Source: Myxococcales bacterium (lineage in GTDB: Bacteria; Myxococcota_A; Polyangia; Polyangiales; Ga0077539). Taken from it: 64,000 bases of DNA. Positions 19,834-24,325 of this stretch are shown piece by piece; positions within the stretch are counted from its first letter, which is position 1; each line of letters begins with the position of its first letter. Made by a program: the position numbers and the translations under genes. The notes below the pieces were generated by a model. It saw only the letters and a program-made list of their open reading frames with translations. It had not been told where the DNA came from and ran no database searches. The stretch lies in NCBI GenBank assembly GCA_013298625.1, contig JAAFIF010000003.1, positions 1-64,000 of the forward strand. Direction: 5' to 3'.

Positions 19834-22764
19834 TCAGCGCGGGTAGTTCCAGAGCACCTGGCCGACGCCGACGGCGCCGCGGTCGACGACGAGGTGCTGA
19901 TAGGCGCCCTCGCCTTGCTCGACGCTCTGTCCGTGCTGCGCGAACTGGCGCCACACGTAGTGGGTGAGCTCGCCGACGGTGAGCGCGTTGTCACGCGGGT
20001 CGTTGTCGGCTTCGCCGCCCATTCCGAGGCGCAAGAAGTGAGAGAGGTAGCCGCCTGCGCGGAAGTTCTGCGCGACCGAGCTCGTCACGTCTTCTTCGCT
20101 CGAGAAGAGCCCGATGCGGCCCGGACGAGTGATCACGTCCTTGGCAAAGCCTCCGGCGTAGCAAGAGTCCAGGGCGAGGATGCTGGTGCGAGCGCGGACC
20201 CCGTCGAAGAGCGTCCCCATCTCGTCGTCCATGAGCTGTCCGTCGTAGACATAGAGGTACTCGTCCATGCCGTCGAGCTCGCGCTGATCCGAGGAGCCGC
20301 CGCGGGTGCGCCCGCCGTGGCCCGAGTAGAAGAAGATGAACACGTCCTGCGGACCCGCCTGCGCGCCGATGCGCTGAATCGCCTCGCGGATGTTCTGCCG
20401 CGTGGCCTGTCCGTCCGTGAGCAGCACGCGGCGGTCCTGGGTCATCAGGCCGCGATCGGTGAGGGCTTCGACCATCTTGACCGCGTCGTTGGCGCACTCC
20501 GCGAGGTCGTTGGTGCCCGAGGGATAGTCCGTGATGCCCGCGAACACGCCCCACACGCGCGGCCCGCCAGCGACGTTGGGCACAGGCGTGGGGTTGGGGT
20601 TGTTTGGGTTGGGGTTGTTGGGGGTGTTGCCGGGGTTGTCGATGGGCAGCGTGCCTGCGGCGCCGCTCTCGACGCGCAGGGTGTACGGGCCGGTCTCGGC
20701 GGCGCGATAGCTGGTGACCATCACCTGGTAGTTGCCCGCTTCGGCCGAGGGAATGTCCACGCCCGAGTTGGTGTTGCCCGACACGAGGTCGTCGTTGTCG
20801 TGCTGCCTTCCGCTCGGCGAGCGCACGATGAGGTACGTGTCGAACGACGAGCTCTCGAGGCGCAAGCGCACGGCCTCGCCGGGCCTGAACTGCAGCGTGT
20901 GCTGGTCGACGAACTCGCCGGCTTGCAGGGTGCGGTCGCCGCGCGCGAGCGTTCCGGTCACTTCGCGGGCGCGAGCGTTGCCGGGCTGCACGGGGTTGGG
21001 CTGCGGCTGTGGCTGCACGCCAGGGACGGGCTGCGGCTGCACGCCAGGGACGGGCTGCGGCTGCGCGCCGCCACCGCCCGGAGCGCGGACGCTGAGCTGA
21101 TACGCGCCGGTTTCTCCGGTGCGGTACGACGACACGGTGACCGTGTACTGACCGGCCTCGGTGGTGACGAGGTCGAGCGCCGAGTTGGTCGTCCCTTGGA
21201 TCCCGTCGTCGTTCTGCTGCTGCGCGCCCGAGGGCGAGCGCACGATCAAGAACGTGTCGAAGTCGCTCGACGTCGTCTCGAGTCGAACGGCCGCGCCCGC
21301 GGGCCAGTTGAACGTGAAATTGTCTGCAAATTCACCGCTCGAACGAGTCCCGTCGCCCTGCGCGAGCGAGCCCGCGACGGTCTGCGCTCCCACGTTGCCC
21401 GGCTGCGCGGGCGTCGGCTGCGGCTGTCCAGGCGCGGGCTGCGCGGCCCCTGCGCCGCCACCGCCGCCGATGTTGAGCGTGTACGCGCCGGTCTCGCCGG
21501 GGCGATAGCTGGTGATCATCACCGTGTGCTGGCCGGCCTCGCGCACGGTGTAGTCGAGCTGCGAGTTGCGGTCGCTCGGGCTGAAGTCGTCGTTGTCTTG
21601 CTGCGAGCCAGAGGGTGCGCGCACGATGAGATACGGGTCGAACTGCGGCGACTCGAGGCGCAGACGGATCTGCGCGCCGACCGGCCAGTTGAAGGTCAAT
21701 CGATCGACGAACTCGCCCGAGTTCAAGCGCTGATCGCCCTGCGCGAGCGTGCCCTGACGGCTCGCCGCGGCGACCTGCGTGTTGCCTCCGGGCTGCGGCT
21801 GCGGCTGCCCCGGAAACCACTCTTGCACGTTGGTCTGTCGCGCCGCGGGGTTGAACTTGAGCTCGTAGCTGCCGGCCACGCCGGCGCGCGTCGCGGAGGC
21901 GATGACTTTGTACTCGCCGGTCTCTGCGAGCACGAGCGAGAGCTGCGAGTTGGTCGTGCCGCCAGAGTCGTCATCGGCGAAGACCGCGCCCGAGGGCGCA
22001 ACGACGATCAGGTACGGGTCGATCGCCGTTGAGTTGAGCGCGAGCGAGACGGTGTCTCCCTGCGTTCCGTTGAACGAGTAGACGTCCGATGCTTCGCCGC
22101 TCGGCAGCGTGGGGTCGTTGGCCGCGAGCGTGCCTTGCACTTCTTGCCCCGGCCGCAGCGACGCGGTCGCCGTCAGCGTCGGCGGCAAGCGATGGTGCGT
22201 GCGCGCCTCCGAGGGCTGGATGTACTCGAGAAACGGCGTGCTCTGCGAGCCCATCTGCTGATAGGCGTTCTGCACGTTCGTGGGCATCGCGAGGGCGTTG
22301 GTGTTCTGCGCGACCTGCGCCGCCTGTCGCTCGGCGCGCACGTGAAACGCGCCTCCAGTGCCCGGGCGATACGGCCGCACGCGGACCTTCAACGTCCCCG
22401 CGGCGCGCGCGGACACCGTGAGCTGCGAGCGCTGACGCGAGCCCTGGTAGTCGTCGTTCATCAACGACGTCCCGTCGGGAAGGACCACCTCGAGCACCGG
22501 GTCGAACGCCGGTGATTCGACGGACACCACGAGGCGCTCGCCCGCGGCGACGCGCACTTCGTAGTGCGCGAGGGCGCTCGCGCCGGGCGCGCTGGGGACG
22601 ATCTGCGCCTGCTGGTCGAGCAGCGTGTTGGGGTTCTGCTGCGCCTGCGGCGGCTGTGCGTTGGTGTTGTTTCGATTGCCACTAGAGCGACGGCAAGCGC
22701 CCGCGCTGGCGACCGCAGTGAGCGCCGCGAGCAACACGAGCGAACGAGGCAGCGGAGTCTTCAT
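19834..22764 (-). CDS. Caspase-fold (peptidase C14) lipoprotein with five PPC-like domains
   Basis: The 976-residue protein starts at ATG 22764 with a lipoprotein signal (lipobox SAGAC near residue 24) and an Asn/Gln-rich linker. Five beta-sandwich repeats of about 110 residues resemble bacterial pre-peptidase C-terminal (PPC) domains. Each has FD(P/T)YLIVRSPSG, a following NDD, and an EAG-x-Y-x-V-x-V-x-SYR-x-GETGAY end. The last 250 residues are a C14 caspase-like domain. FIFFYSGHGG contains the catalytic histidine (H816) and ILALDSCYAGGF the cysteine (C868), with VWGVFAGITDY as the first strand. Bacterial caspase homologues prefer basic or acidic P1 residues depending on subtype, which I cannot assign. 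It is presumably periplasm- or surface-facing. A single gene, with its promoter in the 272 bp upstream. Confidence 0.9.
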   Translation of the reverse strand: MKTPLPRSLVLLAALTAVASAGACRRSSGNRNNTNAQPPQAQQNPNTLLDQQAQIVPSAPGASALAHYEVRVAAGERLVVSVESPAFDPVLEVVLPDGTSLMNDDYQGSRQRSQLTVSARAAGTLKVRVRPYRPGTGGAFHVRAERQAAQVAQNTNALAMPTNVQNAYQQMGSQSTPFLEYIQPSEARTHHRLPPTLTATASLRPGQEVQGTLAANDPTLPSGEASDVYSFNGTQGDTVSLALNSTAIDPYLIVVAPSGAVFADDDSGGTTNSQLSLVLAETGEYKVIASATRAGVAGSYELKFNPAARQTNVQEWFPGQPQPQPGGNTQVAAASRQGTLAQGDQRLNSGEFVDRLTFNWPVGAQIRLRLESPQFDPYLIVRAPSGSQQDNDDFSPSDRNSQLDYTVREAGQHTVMITSYRPGETGAYTLNIGGGGGAGAAQPAPGQPQPTPAQPGNVGAQTVAGSLAQGDGTRSSGEFADNFTFNWPAGAAVRLETTSSDFDTFLIVRSPSGAQQQNDDGIQGTTNSALDLVTTEAGQYTVTVSSYRTGETGAYQLSVRAPGGGGAQPQPVPGVQPQPVPGVQPQPQPNPVQPGNARAREVTGTLARGDRTLQAGEFVDQHTLQFRPGEAVRLRLESSSFDTYLIVRSPSGRQHDNDDLVSGNTNSGVDIPSAEAGNYQVMVTSYRAAETGPYTLRVESGAAGTLPIDNPGNTPNNPNPNNPNPTPVPNVAGGPRVWGVFAGITDYPSGTNDLAECANDAVKMVEALTDRGLMTQDRRVLLTDGQATRQNIREAIQRIGAQAGPQDVFIFFYSGHGGRTRGGSSDQRELDGMDEYLYVYDGQLMDDEMGTLFDGVRARTSILALDSCYAGGFAKDVITRPGRIGLFSSEEDVTSSVAQNFRAGGYLSHFLRLGMGGEADNDPRDNALTVGELTHYVWRQFAQHGQSVEQGEGAYQHLVVDRGAVGVGQVLWNYPR

Positions 22765-22940
22765 CCTGTGCTTCAACCCTTTCTCCCTCAGCGCTCGAGC
22801 GCTCGCGACGCGAGCCTCGCGCTGTTGTGTCTCAACTGAGCCGAGAGGGAGGTCACGGCGCAACGAGTGTACGGGATTCGAAGGTGGTGATGTTCCCAGC
22901 TTTCCGCGATCTGACAGCGCTGCGGTGGTGTGCGTGAGGT

Positions 22941-22960
22941 GTGTGAAGCTGCGGTCACAC
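22941..22960. promoter_or_regulatory. Inverted repeat between divergent genes (operator candidate)
   Basis: GTGTGA and TCACAC are separated by eight bases in the 272-bp region between the caspase-like gene and the protein-RNA operon. The half-sites resemble CRP-type sites, but those need six bases between them, so I do not assign a regulator. The rest of this 272-bp region shows no clear structure. Confidence 0.3.
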
Positions 22961-23036
22961 TCGCTACGCAAAGTTGCTCGTCACGGGGATTGACCGACGC
23001 CGTTGAGCGCCGCATCCGTGCGGCCCCAAAGAACCC

Positions 23037-23768
23037 ATGGCGAAGCTCAATCAAGTGATCGCGATCGAGAAGGGCGTGAAGGCCAAGGCTCACCAAGAGC
23101 TGACCGAAGCGCACCAGCAGCTGCAAAAGCCCTCTCTTCTCGCAGGTATTTCTCGCTCGTATCGTCCCAAGGACGAAGAGGGCGAGCAGCTCCCGTCCGA
23201 GTCGACGAAGGTGCAGCTCAAGGCCGACGACGCGATCCGTCGCACCGTCGAGACGCTGGTCGAGCTCTTCGACGTGACGGCGACGAAGGAGTGGGCCAAC
23301 TGCGAAGCGCGCGCGGACGTGACGGTCGACGGCAACGTGATCGCCGCGCAAGTGCCCGTGACGTACCTGCTGTTTCTCGAGAAGCAGCTCGTGGATCTGC
23401 ACACGTTCGTGAAGAAGCTGCCCGTGCTCGACGCGAGCGAGTCGTGGCTGTTCGACGCGAGCGCGGACTGCTGGGCGACCGAGGCGCTGCAGACCGCGAA
23501 GACCAAGAAGATCCCGCGCAACCACGTGAAGGCCGAGGCGACCGACAAGCACCCCGCGCAGGTCGAGCTCTATTACGAAGACGTGGTCGTGGGCACCTGG
23601 CGCACCGTGAAGTTCTCTGGCGCGCTGCCCGCGCGGCGCGTCAACGAGCTGCTCGTGCGCGTCGAGAAGCTGCAGCAAGCGGTGAAGTTCGCCCGCGAAG
23701 AGGCCAACGGGGCGAAGGCCGAGGACAAGAAGGTCGGCCGCGCGGTGCTGGGATATTTGTTCGGCTGA
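23037..23768 (+). CDS. Conserved protein of unknown function, first gene of a protein-RNA operon
   Basis: The 243-residue soluble protein has no signal peptide or membrane segment. It opens with a charged helix (MAKLNQVIAIEKGVKAKAHQ), then ELTEAHQQLQKP. A middle alpha/beta region contains VPVTYLLFLEKQLVDLHTFVKKLP. A conserved-looking block KKIPRNHVKAEATDKHPAQVE is followed by VKFSGALPARRVNELLVRVEKLQQAVKFAREEANG. The K/H-rich block and the basic helices could contact RNA. I believe close relatives exist in actinobacteria and other phyla, but no biochemical function is known to me. Two tRNA-like RNAs start 38 bp after the stop codon and a single terminator follows them. That suggests one transcript and a ribonucleoprotein. 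The function is an inference from context only. Confidence 0.8.
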   Translation: MAKLNQVIAIEKGVKAKAHQELTEAHQQLQKPSLLAGISRSYRPKDEEGEQLPSESTKVQLKADDAIRRTVETLVELFDVTATKEWANCEARADVTVDGNVIAAQVPVTYLLFLEKQLVDLHTFVKKLPVLDASESWLFDASADCWATEALQTAKTKKIPRNHVKAEATDKHPAQVELYYEDVVVGTWRTVKFSGALPARRVNELLVRVEKLQQAVKFAREEANGAKAEDKKVGRAVLGYLFG

Positions 23769-23805
23769 GCGGGTTGCGCAGGGCGGGGCAGAGGCTTACA
23801 CGGCG

Positions 23806-23934
23806 GGTCGGAGAACAGGCTGAGACTCAAGCTCAAGCTGAAGACTCCGGCGTGTCAGTGCAGGTTCGACTCCTGCCTCCCTCACTCGACGAGGGAGTAG
23901 CCCAACCAACGGAAGAGGCGGCGCCGGGGTGACC
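23806..23934 (+). ncRNA. tRNA-like RNA unit 1 (YrlA-type Y RNA-like, permuted tRNA mimic)
   Basis: The elements come in this order. Closing helix GGTCG (23806-10) pairs with TGACC (23930-34). A side hairpin occupies 23816-23840. CTCCGGCGT (23845-53) pairs with GCGCCGGGG (23921-29) as nine pairs including two G.U. The T-arm GCAGG-TTCGACT-CCTGC (23860-76) has a loop matching the tRNA consensus TTCRANY. An acceptor-like hairpin CTCCCTC-ACTCGAC-GAGGGAG (23877-97) is perfectly paired. TA, then a D-arm GCC...CGG...GGC (23900-19) and a G follow. This is a tRNA with its acceptor stem closed by a loop and its anticodon stem opened. That is the layout of the effector module in YrlA-type bacterial Y RNAs. 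No CCA is encoded, and no G3.U70 alanine identity pair is present, which argues against tmRNA. Confidence 0.7.
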
Positions 23935-23978
23935 AACAACCCTCAGATTTCTCTCCAGTCTGAGCATGCGCCGTCGTT

Positions 23979-24115
23979 CACTCGATCAACCGAAGCGCGT
24001 CACGTAACCCCCGGATGGGCGTTCAACTCGCCCTCAGCCCACTCTACGGGCAGATCGTCTAACCGTAAGACACGGGCGGTCTCAGGACTGAACACGCTTC
24101 TTAAACGTGCGAGTG
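23979..24115 (+). ncRNA. tRNA-like RNA unit 2 (YrlA-type Y RNA-like)
   Basis: This is a second copy of the same architecture with almost no sequence identity to unit 1. Outer helix CACTCG (23979-84) pairs with CGAGTG (24110-15). An internal loop follows. GAAGCG-C-GT (23992-24000) pairs with AC-A-CGCTTC (24092-24100). CCCG (24010-13) pairs with CGGG (24073-76). The T-arm is GGGCG-TTCAACT-CGCCC (24017-33). The acceptor-like hairpin is TCAGCCC-ACTCTAC-GGGCAGA (24034-54), with one A-A mismatch. TC precedes the D-arm GTCT-AACCGTA-AGAC (24057-71), which looks like that of glutamate and glutamine tRNAs. The compensating sequence differences between the two units support a conserved fold. Its closing stem is long, as in Y RNAs. 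Confidence 0.65.
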
Positions 24116-24138
24116 GCCCACACTAGGGCGGCCAACCC

Positions 24139-24179
24139 GAAGCTCTGCAGATGGTCACTCTGCGGAGCTTCATTTATTT
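24139..24179 (+). terminator. Strong intrinsic terminator of the protein-RNA operon
   Basis: GAAGCTC (24139-45) pairs with GAGCTTC (24065 plus 100, i.e. 24165-71) and GCAGA (24147-51) pairs with TCTGC (24159-63). A T.G pair joins the two, making a 13-pair stem with the seven-base loop TGGTCAC. ATTTATTT follows immediately. It is the clearest terminator in the window and stands 24 bp after RNA unit 2. Confidence 0.85.
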
Positions 24180-24325
24180 CCGAACCGCGACGGCGCGCGT
24201 CGCCGCTACGCGGCTCCTTCCCTCGCGCCTGCGGTTCGTGGTTTCCGAACCGCGACGGCGCGCGTCGCCGCTACGCGGCTCCTTCCCTCGCGCCTGCGGT
24301 TCGTGGTTTCCGAACCGCGACGGCG
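24177..24325. repeat. 65-bp direct repeat with internal palindrome, 2.3 copies (REP-like)
   Basis: A 65-bp unit starts at 24177 and again at 24242, and a partial third copy starts at 24307. Within each unit CGAACCGC near the start pairs with GCGGTTCG near the end, so each copy can fold into a long stem. The arrangement resembles REP/BIME-type extragenic repeats. It lies between convergent transcripts and overlaps the T-run of the terminator. Confidence 0.8.

Follow-up and report, generated by a model that had tools for sequence, protein, structure and literature searches.

A predicted noncoding RNA with two permuted tRNA-like heads adjoins DUF7873 genes in bacteria and phages

The closest known relative of the RNA described here is YrlA, the bacterial Y RNA (RF02553), with which it shares a permuted module of T-arm, acceptor hairpin and D-arm set on a helix with a conserved internal loop, as well as the pairing of the RNA with one protein gene, in that case Ro60/Rsr (TROVE, PF05731). 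A second parallel is tmRNA (RF00023), above all its permuted two-piece form, with its dedicated protein SmpB, in which the upper half of a tRNA is likewise permuted and a scaffold helix replaces the anticodon arm, and which also has an acceptor end resembling an RNase P substrate and occurs in phages. In the circularly permuted tRNA genes of Cyanidioschyzon merolae, the 3′ half comes before the 5′ half and a short loop bridges the two at the acceptor end; the present RNA has the same order and the same kind of loop joining the halves, but its heads have no anticodon arm and are embedded in a larger conserved RNA. The sections of PMC12286853 used here describe GOLLD and ROOL as phage and prophage RNAs of unknown function that lie near tRNA islands and sometimes have tRNAs inside, a setting and a feature that our RNA shares; they differ from it in their unrelated sequence and structure, their length of 600–800 nt or more and the lack of a known protein partner, and tRNA-like heads are not described for them in those sections.

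We analyzed a stretch of 64,000 nucleotides (the window) from a Myxococcales bacterium (GCA_013298625.1, contig JAAFIF010000003.1), in which a gene that scores 386 bits against the Pfam model of DUF7873 (gathering cut-off 27), and so belongs to this family, is followed directly on its 3′ side by a predicted ncRNA (Table 1). The RNA is conserved in this position in all relatives inspected, and a consensus fold was obtained for it. Its parts run in the order hexamer-periodic 5′ element, unit 1, linker, unit 2, TTAAACG motif and terminator-like hairpin. In most of the aligned cellular loci outside Streptomyces, from several phyla, the pattern TTGMNN, 17/18 nt, TANNNT lies about 7 nt 5′ of the GGAG that starts the RNA (spacing judged by eye). 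A generic promoter consensus scan does not report the copy in the window, which is too weak for it, and the predicted promoter therefore rests on this conservation. Hairpins of the terminator-like kind with the RGGNNAY loop type are present in other loci too, and we predict that the ncRNA is a stand-alone transcription unit with its own promoter and terminator. That the two units would share a transcript, as had been proposed in a preliminary description of unit 2, agrees with the predicted promoter upstream and terminator after unit 2, none having been found between them. In the 5′ element (E1), runs of at least three YTNANN hexamers occur in 29 of 67 loci, compared with 3 of 1340 shuffles; a reading of the hexamers as a short peptide (LRLKLKLK) was rejected in favor of an RNA motif, which is likelier because Streptomyces has rare AGA/AGG/TTG codons there and an almost invariant A occupies the first codon position. 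Outside the RNA, a perfect 65-bp tandem repeat of 2.3 copies (24177–24325) stands directly after the terminator, with similar repeats at the same place in locus L007, and a long protein that has repeats of the PPC domain as well as a caspase-like domain (Peptidase_C14) is encoded on the opposite strand upstream of the DUF7873 gene (19834–22968, −), which it also adjoins in L004 and L007.

Table 1. Features of the DUF7873 locus in the window
Feature	Position	Strand	Remarks
DUF7873 gene (PF25283)	23037–23768	+	243 aa; protein gene constantly linked to the ncRNA
Predicted sigma70-type promoter of the ncRNA	23774–23802	+	TTGCGC (23774–23779), 17 nt, TACACG (23797–23802)
Whole predicted ncRNA with two permuted tRNA-like heads	23809–24178	+	about 370 nt; ends inferred from promoter and terminator
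5′ element E1	23820–23843	+	hexamer-periodic: CTGAGA CTCAAG CTCAAG CTGAAG
Unit 1 core	23860–23919	+	T-arm 23860–23876, acceptor hairpin 23877–23897, TA (positions 8–9), D-arm 23900–23919
Inter-unit element E2 (CTCAGA...TCTGAG)	23942–23964	+	conserved linker; E1–E2 swap test
Unit 2 as modeled by R1	23967–24118	+	contains 23979–24115
Unit 2 outer helix CACTCG/CGAGTG	23979–23984 / 24110–24115	+	
Unit 2 base internal loop, 5′ side	23985–23989	+	ATCAA; consensus AUCRA; nearly invariant columns of alignment A3
Unit 2 outer helix GAAGCG/CGCTTC	23992–23997 / 24095–24100	+	
Unit 2 T-arm GGGCG-TTCAACT-CGCCC	24017–24033	+	loop TTCAACT; 98.6% of cells paired (58 loci)
Unit 2 acceptor stem closed as hairpin TCAGCCC/GGGCAGA	24034–24054	+	6/7 pairs, one A.A mismatch; loop ACTCTAC
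Unit 2 D-arm GTCT-AACCGTA-AGAC	24057–24071	+	98.7% of cells paired, 4/4 pairs covary (58 loci)
Unit 2 base loop, 3′ side	24101–24107	+	TTAAACG; nearly invariant columns of alignment A3
Terminator-like hairpin	24139–24171	+	13 pairs, then ATTTATTT; loop fits RGGNNAY (here ATGGTCAC)

Folded as a single sequence, unit 2 (23979–24115) is only moderately better than its shuffles (z −2.5, or −4.0 with flanks), and relatives were therefore used for the structure test. Alignments of unit 2 with its outer helices (58 loci) and of unit 1 (A4, 50 loci) were made with MAFFT, which has no structural bias, and folded de novo with RNAalifold. For unit 2 this recovers the T-arm, the acceptor hairpin, the D-arm and the two outer helices, all of which lie where they had been placed from the single sequence. 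Compensatory (two-sided) changes occur in 30 of the 32 pairs across these 58 diverse loci, standard pairs make up 95.1% of the pair cells compared with 66.5% after shuffling, and the covariation score of 0.784 compares with 0.228 in shuffled alignments (0/500) and with no more than 0.153 after the structure has been shifted along the alignment. In the acceptor hairpin, 99.0% of cells are paired and 7/7 pairs covary. Unit 1 shows compensatory changes in 12 of its 15 predicted pairs. The covariation in the 58 loci thus bears out the earlier suggestion that selection acts on structure, and arms of tRNA type in permuted order are found in both units, as had been proposed. For the helices that join distant segments, we used a swap test that compares the duplex energy of the native partner with that of partners taken from other loci. 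The E1–E2 helix is supported, native pairing being better than swapped (p = 9e-7), as are the anticodon-stem-like helices beneath both heads (p 2e-8 and 6e-11); pairing of the segment after the D-arm with E1 or E2 found no support in this test (p 0.3–0.4). A pseudoknot between the loop of the end hairpin and the unit 1 D-arm was dropped, being inconsistent among loci. From the covariation and swap-test results we conclude that each head is the upper half of a tRNA with permuted arms, carried by a scaffold.

A strict descriptor (T-arm with a TTCRA-type loop, directly attached 7-bp acceptor hairpin, 2-nt spacer, D-arm) detects units 3′ of DUF7873 in 164 of 168 loci, mostly two in each, compared with 19 of 504 dinucleotide shuffles; a still stricter unit score had been replaced, as it missed unit 1 copies with long D-loops. 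The spacing of the heads is constant, mostly 84–111 nt. The view that the two units are almost unrelated in sequence was slightly overstated, since their cores align better than 1000/1000 mononucleotide shuffles, the likeness running through shared tRNA-type positions. Each unit nevertheless keeps a D-arm signature of its own across phyla (GCCCAA..GG..GAGGC in unit 1, GTYYAA..GG..RRAC in unit 2) and, for this reason, of the roles suggested for the doubling, specialization or joint action is favored over dosage. T-loop, D-loop and acceptor hairpin are kept in both units across relatives, and the number of units varies between genomes. A suspicion that unit 2 is diverging or decaying did not hold, because unit 2 is the better kept of the two and persists in bacteria, whereas the descriptor detects no unit 1 in some 20 loci of Streptomyces, an absence also seen on visual inspection of L026, and the T-stem of unit 1 is bulged in one Myxococcota group. 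Two heads are not always needed, since a single head is retained in some Streptomyces and in at least one Vibrio phage.

The covariance model of unit 2 (R1) matches unit 2 of the window with 109.4 bits (genome-wide E 1.6e-25), and no other full-length match is that strong; the only other matches above 25 bits in the host genome are unit 1, whose core scores 29.7 bits, and YrlA-type RNAs on a different contig, through their tRNA-like cores. DUF7873 is carried by 10 of 57 relatives of the host, 10/10 with the conserved RNA downstream. Far from being absent or unstructured in these close relatives, unit 2 scores above 100 bits in nine of the ten, compared with 0 of 47 DUF7873-negative relatives (Fisher p 1e-9; most positives are in the R1 training set), and the tenth, with long loop inserts (G031), gives 38.6 bits. 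Among held-out Myxococcota, a full-length R1 match lies right beside the gene in 11/11 genomes with full-length DUF7873 (29–113 bits), and nine held-out DUF7873-negative genomes have no R1 match except for one of 50 bits in a separate YrlA-like array. A wide scan located DUF7873 in more than 560 stretches of genomes, and also in 84 IMG/VR stretches, 73 phage records and 4 plasmid records; the top 80 of the genome stretches come from Myxococcota, Streptomyces, Kitasatospora, Ktedonobacterales, Anaerolineae and Armatimonadota. The same RNA stands behind DUF7873 in nearly all of 22 loci inspected, in 14/14 DUF7873 genomes of other phyla, usually as one full-length copy (loci mostly in the training set), and, as a full-length R1 match immediately behind the gene, in almost all of 80 viral loci; it is about 1 kb away in L172, and the viral loci L105 and L106 have no full-length R1 match within 4 kb. 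The pair occurs in named phages of Arthrobacter, Gordonia, Rhizobium, Klebsiella, Pseudanabaena and Vibrio, and the heads persist in phages with only about 30% DUF7873 protein identity. DUF7873 is the only protein common to the locus neighborhoods, no other conserved neighbor being found among those compared. Practically every DUF7873 gene examined is adjoined by the RNA, in Myxococcota, Actinomycetota, Chloroflexota, Armatimonadota and phages.

The scans also turned up several arrangements at the margins of this distribution. Two genomes carry an additional, divergent copy of DUF7873, behind which stand a single tRNA-like unit and an ordinary tRNA (L228 and L229; G228:C19, G195:C325); this order resembles that of phages, and a prophage origin is possible. 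In a distant Myxococcota family, proteins with only parts of DUF7873 (49–58 bits; L226:1805 frame, −, and L227:1838 frame) have no RNA found beside them. A genome without DUF7873 (G146) contains a permuted tRNA-like array just before a long open frame (L224:3900–4270), separate from the DUF7873 system. Weak R1 matches also arise at L225:3476–3885 from a tandem of three almost identical tRNAs, whose junctions imitate the permuted order; such cases call for caution in scans of this kind.

The DUF7873 protein has a mean identity of 79% across 10 relatives of the host and a pI of 7.0, and is thus not notably basic. An earlier AlphaFold2 model from 10 close sequences (pLDDT 77) gave no usable match in Foldseek searches, and the confident model from 62 sequences (pLDDT 93.8) has no convincing fold match in the PDB by Foldseek or VIA-align; Cas7 rows (E 0.02, TM about 0.1) and VIA-align Z values up to 7.5 (rmsd 13) were rejected as evidence. 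No model in PHROGs or NCBIfam matches the protein, nor does any PADLOC-DB model of known anti-phage defense proteins searched with PADLOC, and DUF7873 is not mentioned in the literature searched. For the RNA, Rfam at gathering threshold and ARAGORN find nothing in the window, where ARAGORN detects no complete cloverleaf with anticodon arm, and neither RF00023 nor ARAGORN recognizes a tmRNA with a tag reading frame; the Rfam tRNA model reaches 21.1 bits, below 29 and in a false register. GOLLD and ROOL have no Rfam match in the window or in 15 further loci. Our literature search found no paper on a DUF7873-linked RNA, which is covered by no Rfam family and appears to form an undescribed class. 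It differs from tmRNA in its two heads, the lack of a recognized tag reading frame or tmRNA pseudoknots, the absent Rfam match and an unrelated protein, and from YrlA in having two modules in one RNA, DUF7873 as partner, a base loop of the AUCRA/UUAAACG type and N-CCA acceptor ends.

Bacterial RNase P prefers substrates with N-CCA, C74, U(-1) and G(+1). A discriminator followed by CCA stands in register at the start of the acceptor loop in 14/51 distinct copies of unit 1 and 33/85 of unit 2, CCA being found at loop positions 2–4 compared with at most one occurrence at any neighboring position (p 4e-14 for unit 1 and 5e-37 for unit 2). C74 is present in 37/51 and 77/85, respectively, G(+1), the first acceptor base, in 41/51 and 69/85, and U(-1), the base before the acceptor 5′ strand, in 56/85 copies of unit 2. 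The units were selected by U8 and the T-loop, and none of these positions was used in the selection. In the window, the unit 2 loop ACTCTAC starts like a tRNA 3′ end (discriminator, C74). Most acceptor loops have no encoded CCA, many are only 6–7 nt long, and N73 in unit 2 is often U. The loops share no common sequence and vary in length between 4 and more than 100 nt, and in the viral contig L160 (4838–4970) an intact tRNA-Thr (TGT) gene sits inside the unit 1 acceptor loop, for which two reasons continuity through the loop seems dispensable. Copies in phages are often set in tRNA arrays: tRNAs occur in 34 of 57 long viral loci, with a mean of 4.5 per locus compared with 0.33 in cellular loci (a comparison of phages with bacteria, not with other phage loci), and in Gordonia phage Phendrix the DUF7873–RNA pair lies in the middle of a tRNA array. 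A further IMG/VR contig with DUF7873 and the RNA carries a tmRNA as well (L125:7032–7436, 111.9 bits).

Sequence comparison thus establishes the two heads, selection on their structure, the linkage to DUF7873, the tRNA-type acceptor ends and the setting in phage tRNA arrays. The explanation that we hold to be the best, with moderate confidence, is that DUF7873 and the RNA form an RNP that would show two mimics of the tRNA elbow and acceptor to tRNA-handling factors, RNase P being the first candidate, and act as a tether or decoy. In such an autonomous RNA-protein system, DUF7873 would be made from the upstream gene and the ∼370-nt RNA from its own promoter. The RNA would be a scaffold with two heads. 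In each of them, the upper half of a tRNA would be reassembled with its arms permuted and a loop closing the acceptor end: the T-arm would stack on the 7-bp acceptor, U8 and a D-arm whose GG would dock with the T-loop would come next, and a helix resembling an anticodon stem would connect the head to the scaffold. The protein would bind the parts that are not tRNA-like, namely the AUCRA/UUAAACG loop, the hexamer element and the end hairpin; that it binds RNA we infer from the linkage, and the pI of 7.0 and the absent fold match count against it. Factors that read the tRNA elbow and acceptor would dock on both heads, and of these RNase P is the best candidate because the acceptor hairpin loops have its substrate features, other enzymes of tRNA maturation, decay or cleavage being possible; loops of 6–7 nt, the frequently missing CCA and the less than ideal U73 of unit 2 speak against contact with RNase P. 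In this way, the RNP would serve as a tether, a means of sequestration or a decoy for such factors, comparable to Y RNA and PNPase or as proposed for anticodon nucleases; in phages, it would guard or service the tRNAs that the phage itself encodes.

The strongest rival to this tether or decoy supposes that each head matures in the manner of a permuted pre-tRNA or two-piece tmRNA, with an RNase P cut before the acceptor 5′ strand and 3′ trimming or CCA addition, to yield a nicked two- or three-piece RNA whose ends might be aminoacylated and whose partner would be DUF7873, as SmpB is for tmRNA. We regard this as possible but rather unlikely. The exactly placed N-CCA together with C74, U(-1) and G(+1) would be expected of such substrates, the variable loops look dispensable, and excision of the tRNA in the L160 loop must split the chain, but the loops that are short or lack an encoded CCA and the U73 of unit 2 are at odds with it, and neither a tag reading frame nor a resume-codon architecture could be identified. 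Taken further, both heads would be cut by RNase P and CCA-ended in a new class of RNP, a nicked multi-piece RNA with two tRNA-like ends held by DUF7873 and acting on the ribosome or tRNA machinery, with which phages would control tRNA supply during infection, a scheme that we consider doubtful. It is distinctly improbable that the RNA is instead a cis element, a structured 3′ UTR bound by DUF7873 for control of its own expression with tRNA mimicry as the mode of recognition, as in thrS autoregulation. The invariant position just downstream on the same strand and the single copy per genome would suit it; the promoter-like sequence of its own in many phyla, the distance of up to about 1 kb in L172, and two elaborate heads on a scaffold, which exceed the needs of autoregulation, would not. 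Decayed tRNA genes or a tandem-tRNA junction that merely resembles permuted tRNAs deserve practically no credence: tandem tRNAs do give weak R1 matches, as in L225, but the non-tRNA helices covary as well, the head spacing is constant, there is no anticodon arm and the linkage to one protein family is near-universal. The covariation of all helices and the held-out DUF7873 linkage refute that reading.

A divergent Y RNA, in which unit 2 with its base loop would be a YrlA-type RNA for Ro60/Rsr and unit 1 a duplicate, is improbable, too, although the topology is the same as that of YrlA. In L096, L058, L204 and L205, the entire Rfam YrlA model can be aligned to unit 2, with full-length scores of 26–33 bits in some loci, and R1 in turn recognizes the cores of true YrlA RNAs beside the host Ro60 gene (50 and 47 bits). 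Ro60 is also commoner in the DUF7873-bearing relatives (8/10 compared with 11/47). All scores are, however, far below the Rfam threshold of 69 bits: at permissive settings YrlA gives 19 bits in the window, on unit 1 only, and at best 32.7 bits in the other loci tried. The host Ro60/TROVE gene lies on another contig, away from the RNA, which adjoins DUF7873 instead, and canonical YrlA-type RNAs are kept near that Ro60 gene; genomes with both systems likewise have canonical YrlA RNAs as separate copies. Ro60 was not found in five Ktedonobacterales genomes, Kitasatospora, one Streptomyces, two DUF7873-bearing family members and most of the phages tested. We therefore do not file the DUF7873-linked RNA as a Y RNA, its scores being below 69 bits, its partner gene a different one, Ro60 often absent and canonical YrlA retained by the host, although it may function in a similar way. 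The host Ro60 locus (L013, G000:C22:171000–190500) has the gene inside an array of tRNAs and tRNA-like RNAs, with YrlA-type RNAs of 53 and 45 bits by Rfam and a third tRNA-like core of 50 bits by R1.

Together, these data suggest that DUF7873 and its adjoining RNA are probably an undescribed RNA-protein machine that imitates tRNA. The RNA would represent a widespread class, found in several phyla of soil bacteria and in phages of Gordonia, Arthrobacter, Rhizobium, Klebsiella, Vibrio and cyanobacteria, with a dedicated and highly conserved protein, and would extend tRNA mimicry from one head to two while giving DUF7873 a likely role. The reason why tRNA-mimicking RNAs accompany the tRNA arrays of phages thereby becomes directly testable in Streptomyces that can be cultured and in phages kept in the laboratory, such as Racecar (Arthrobacter) and Phendrix (Gordonia).
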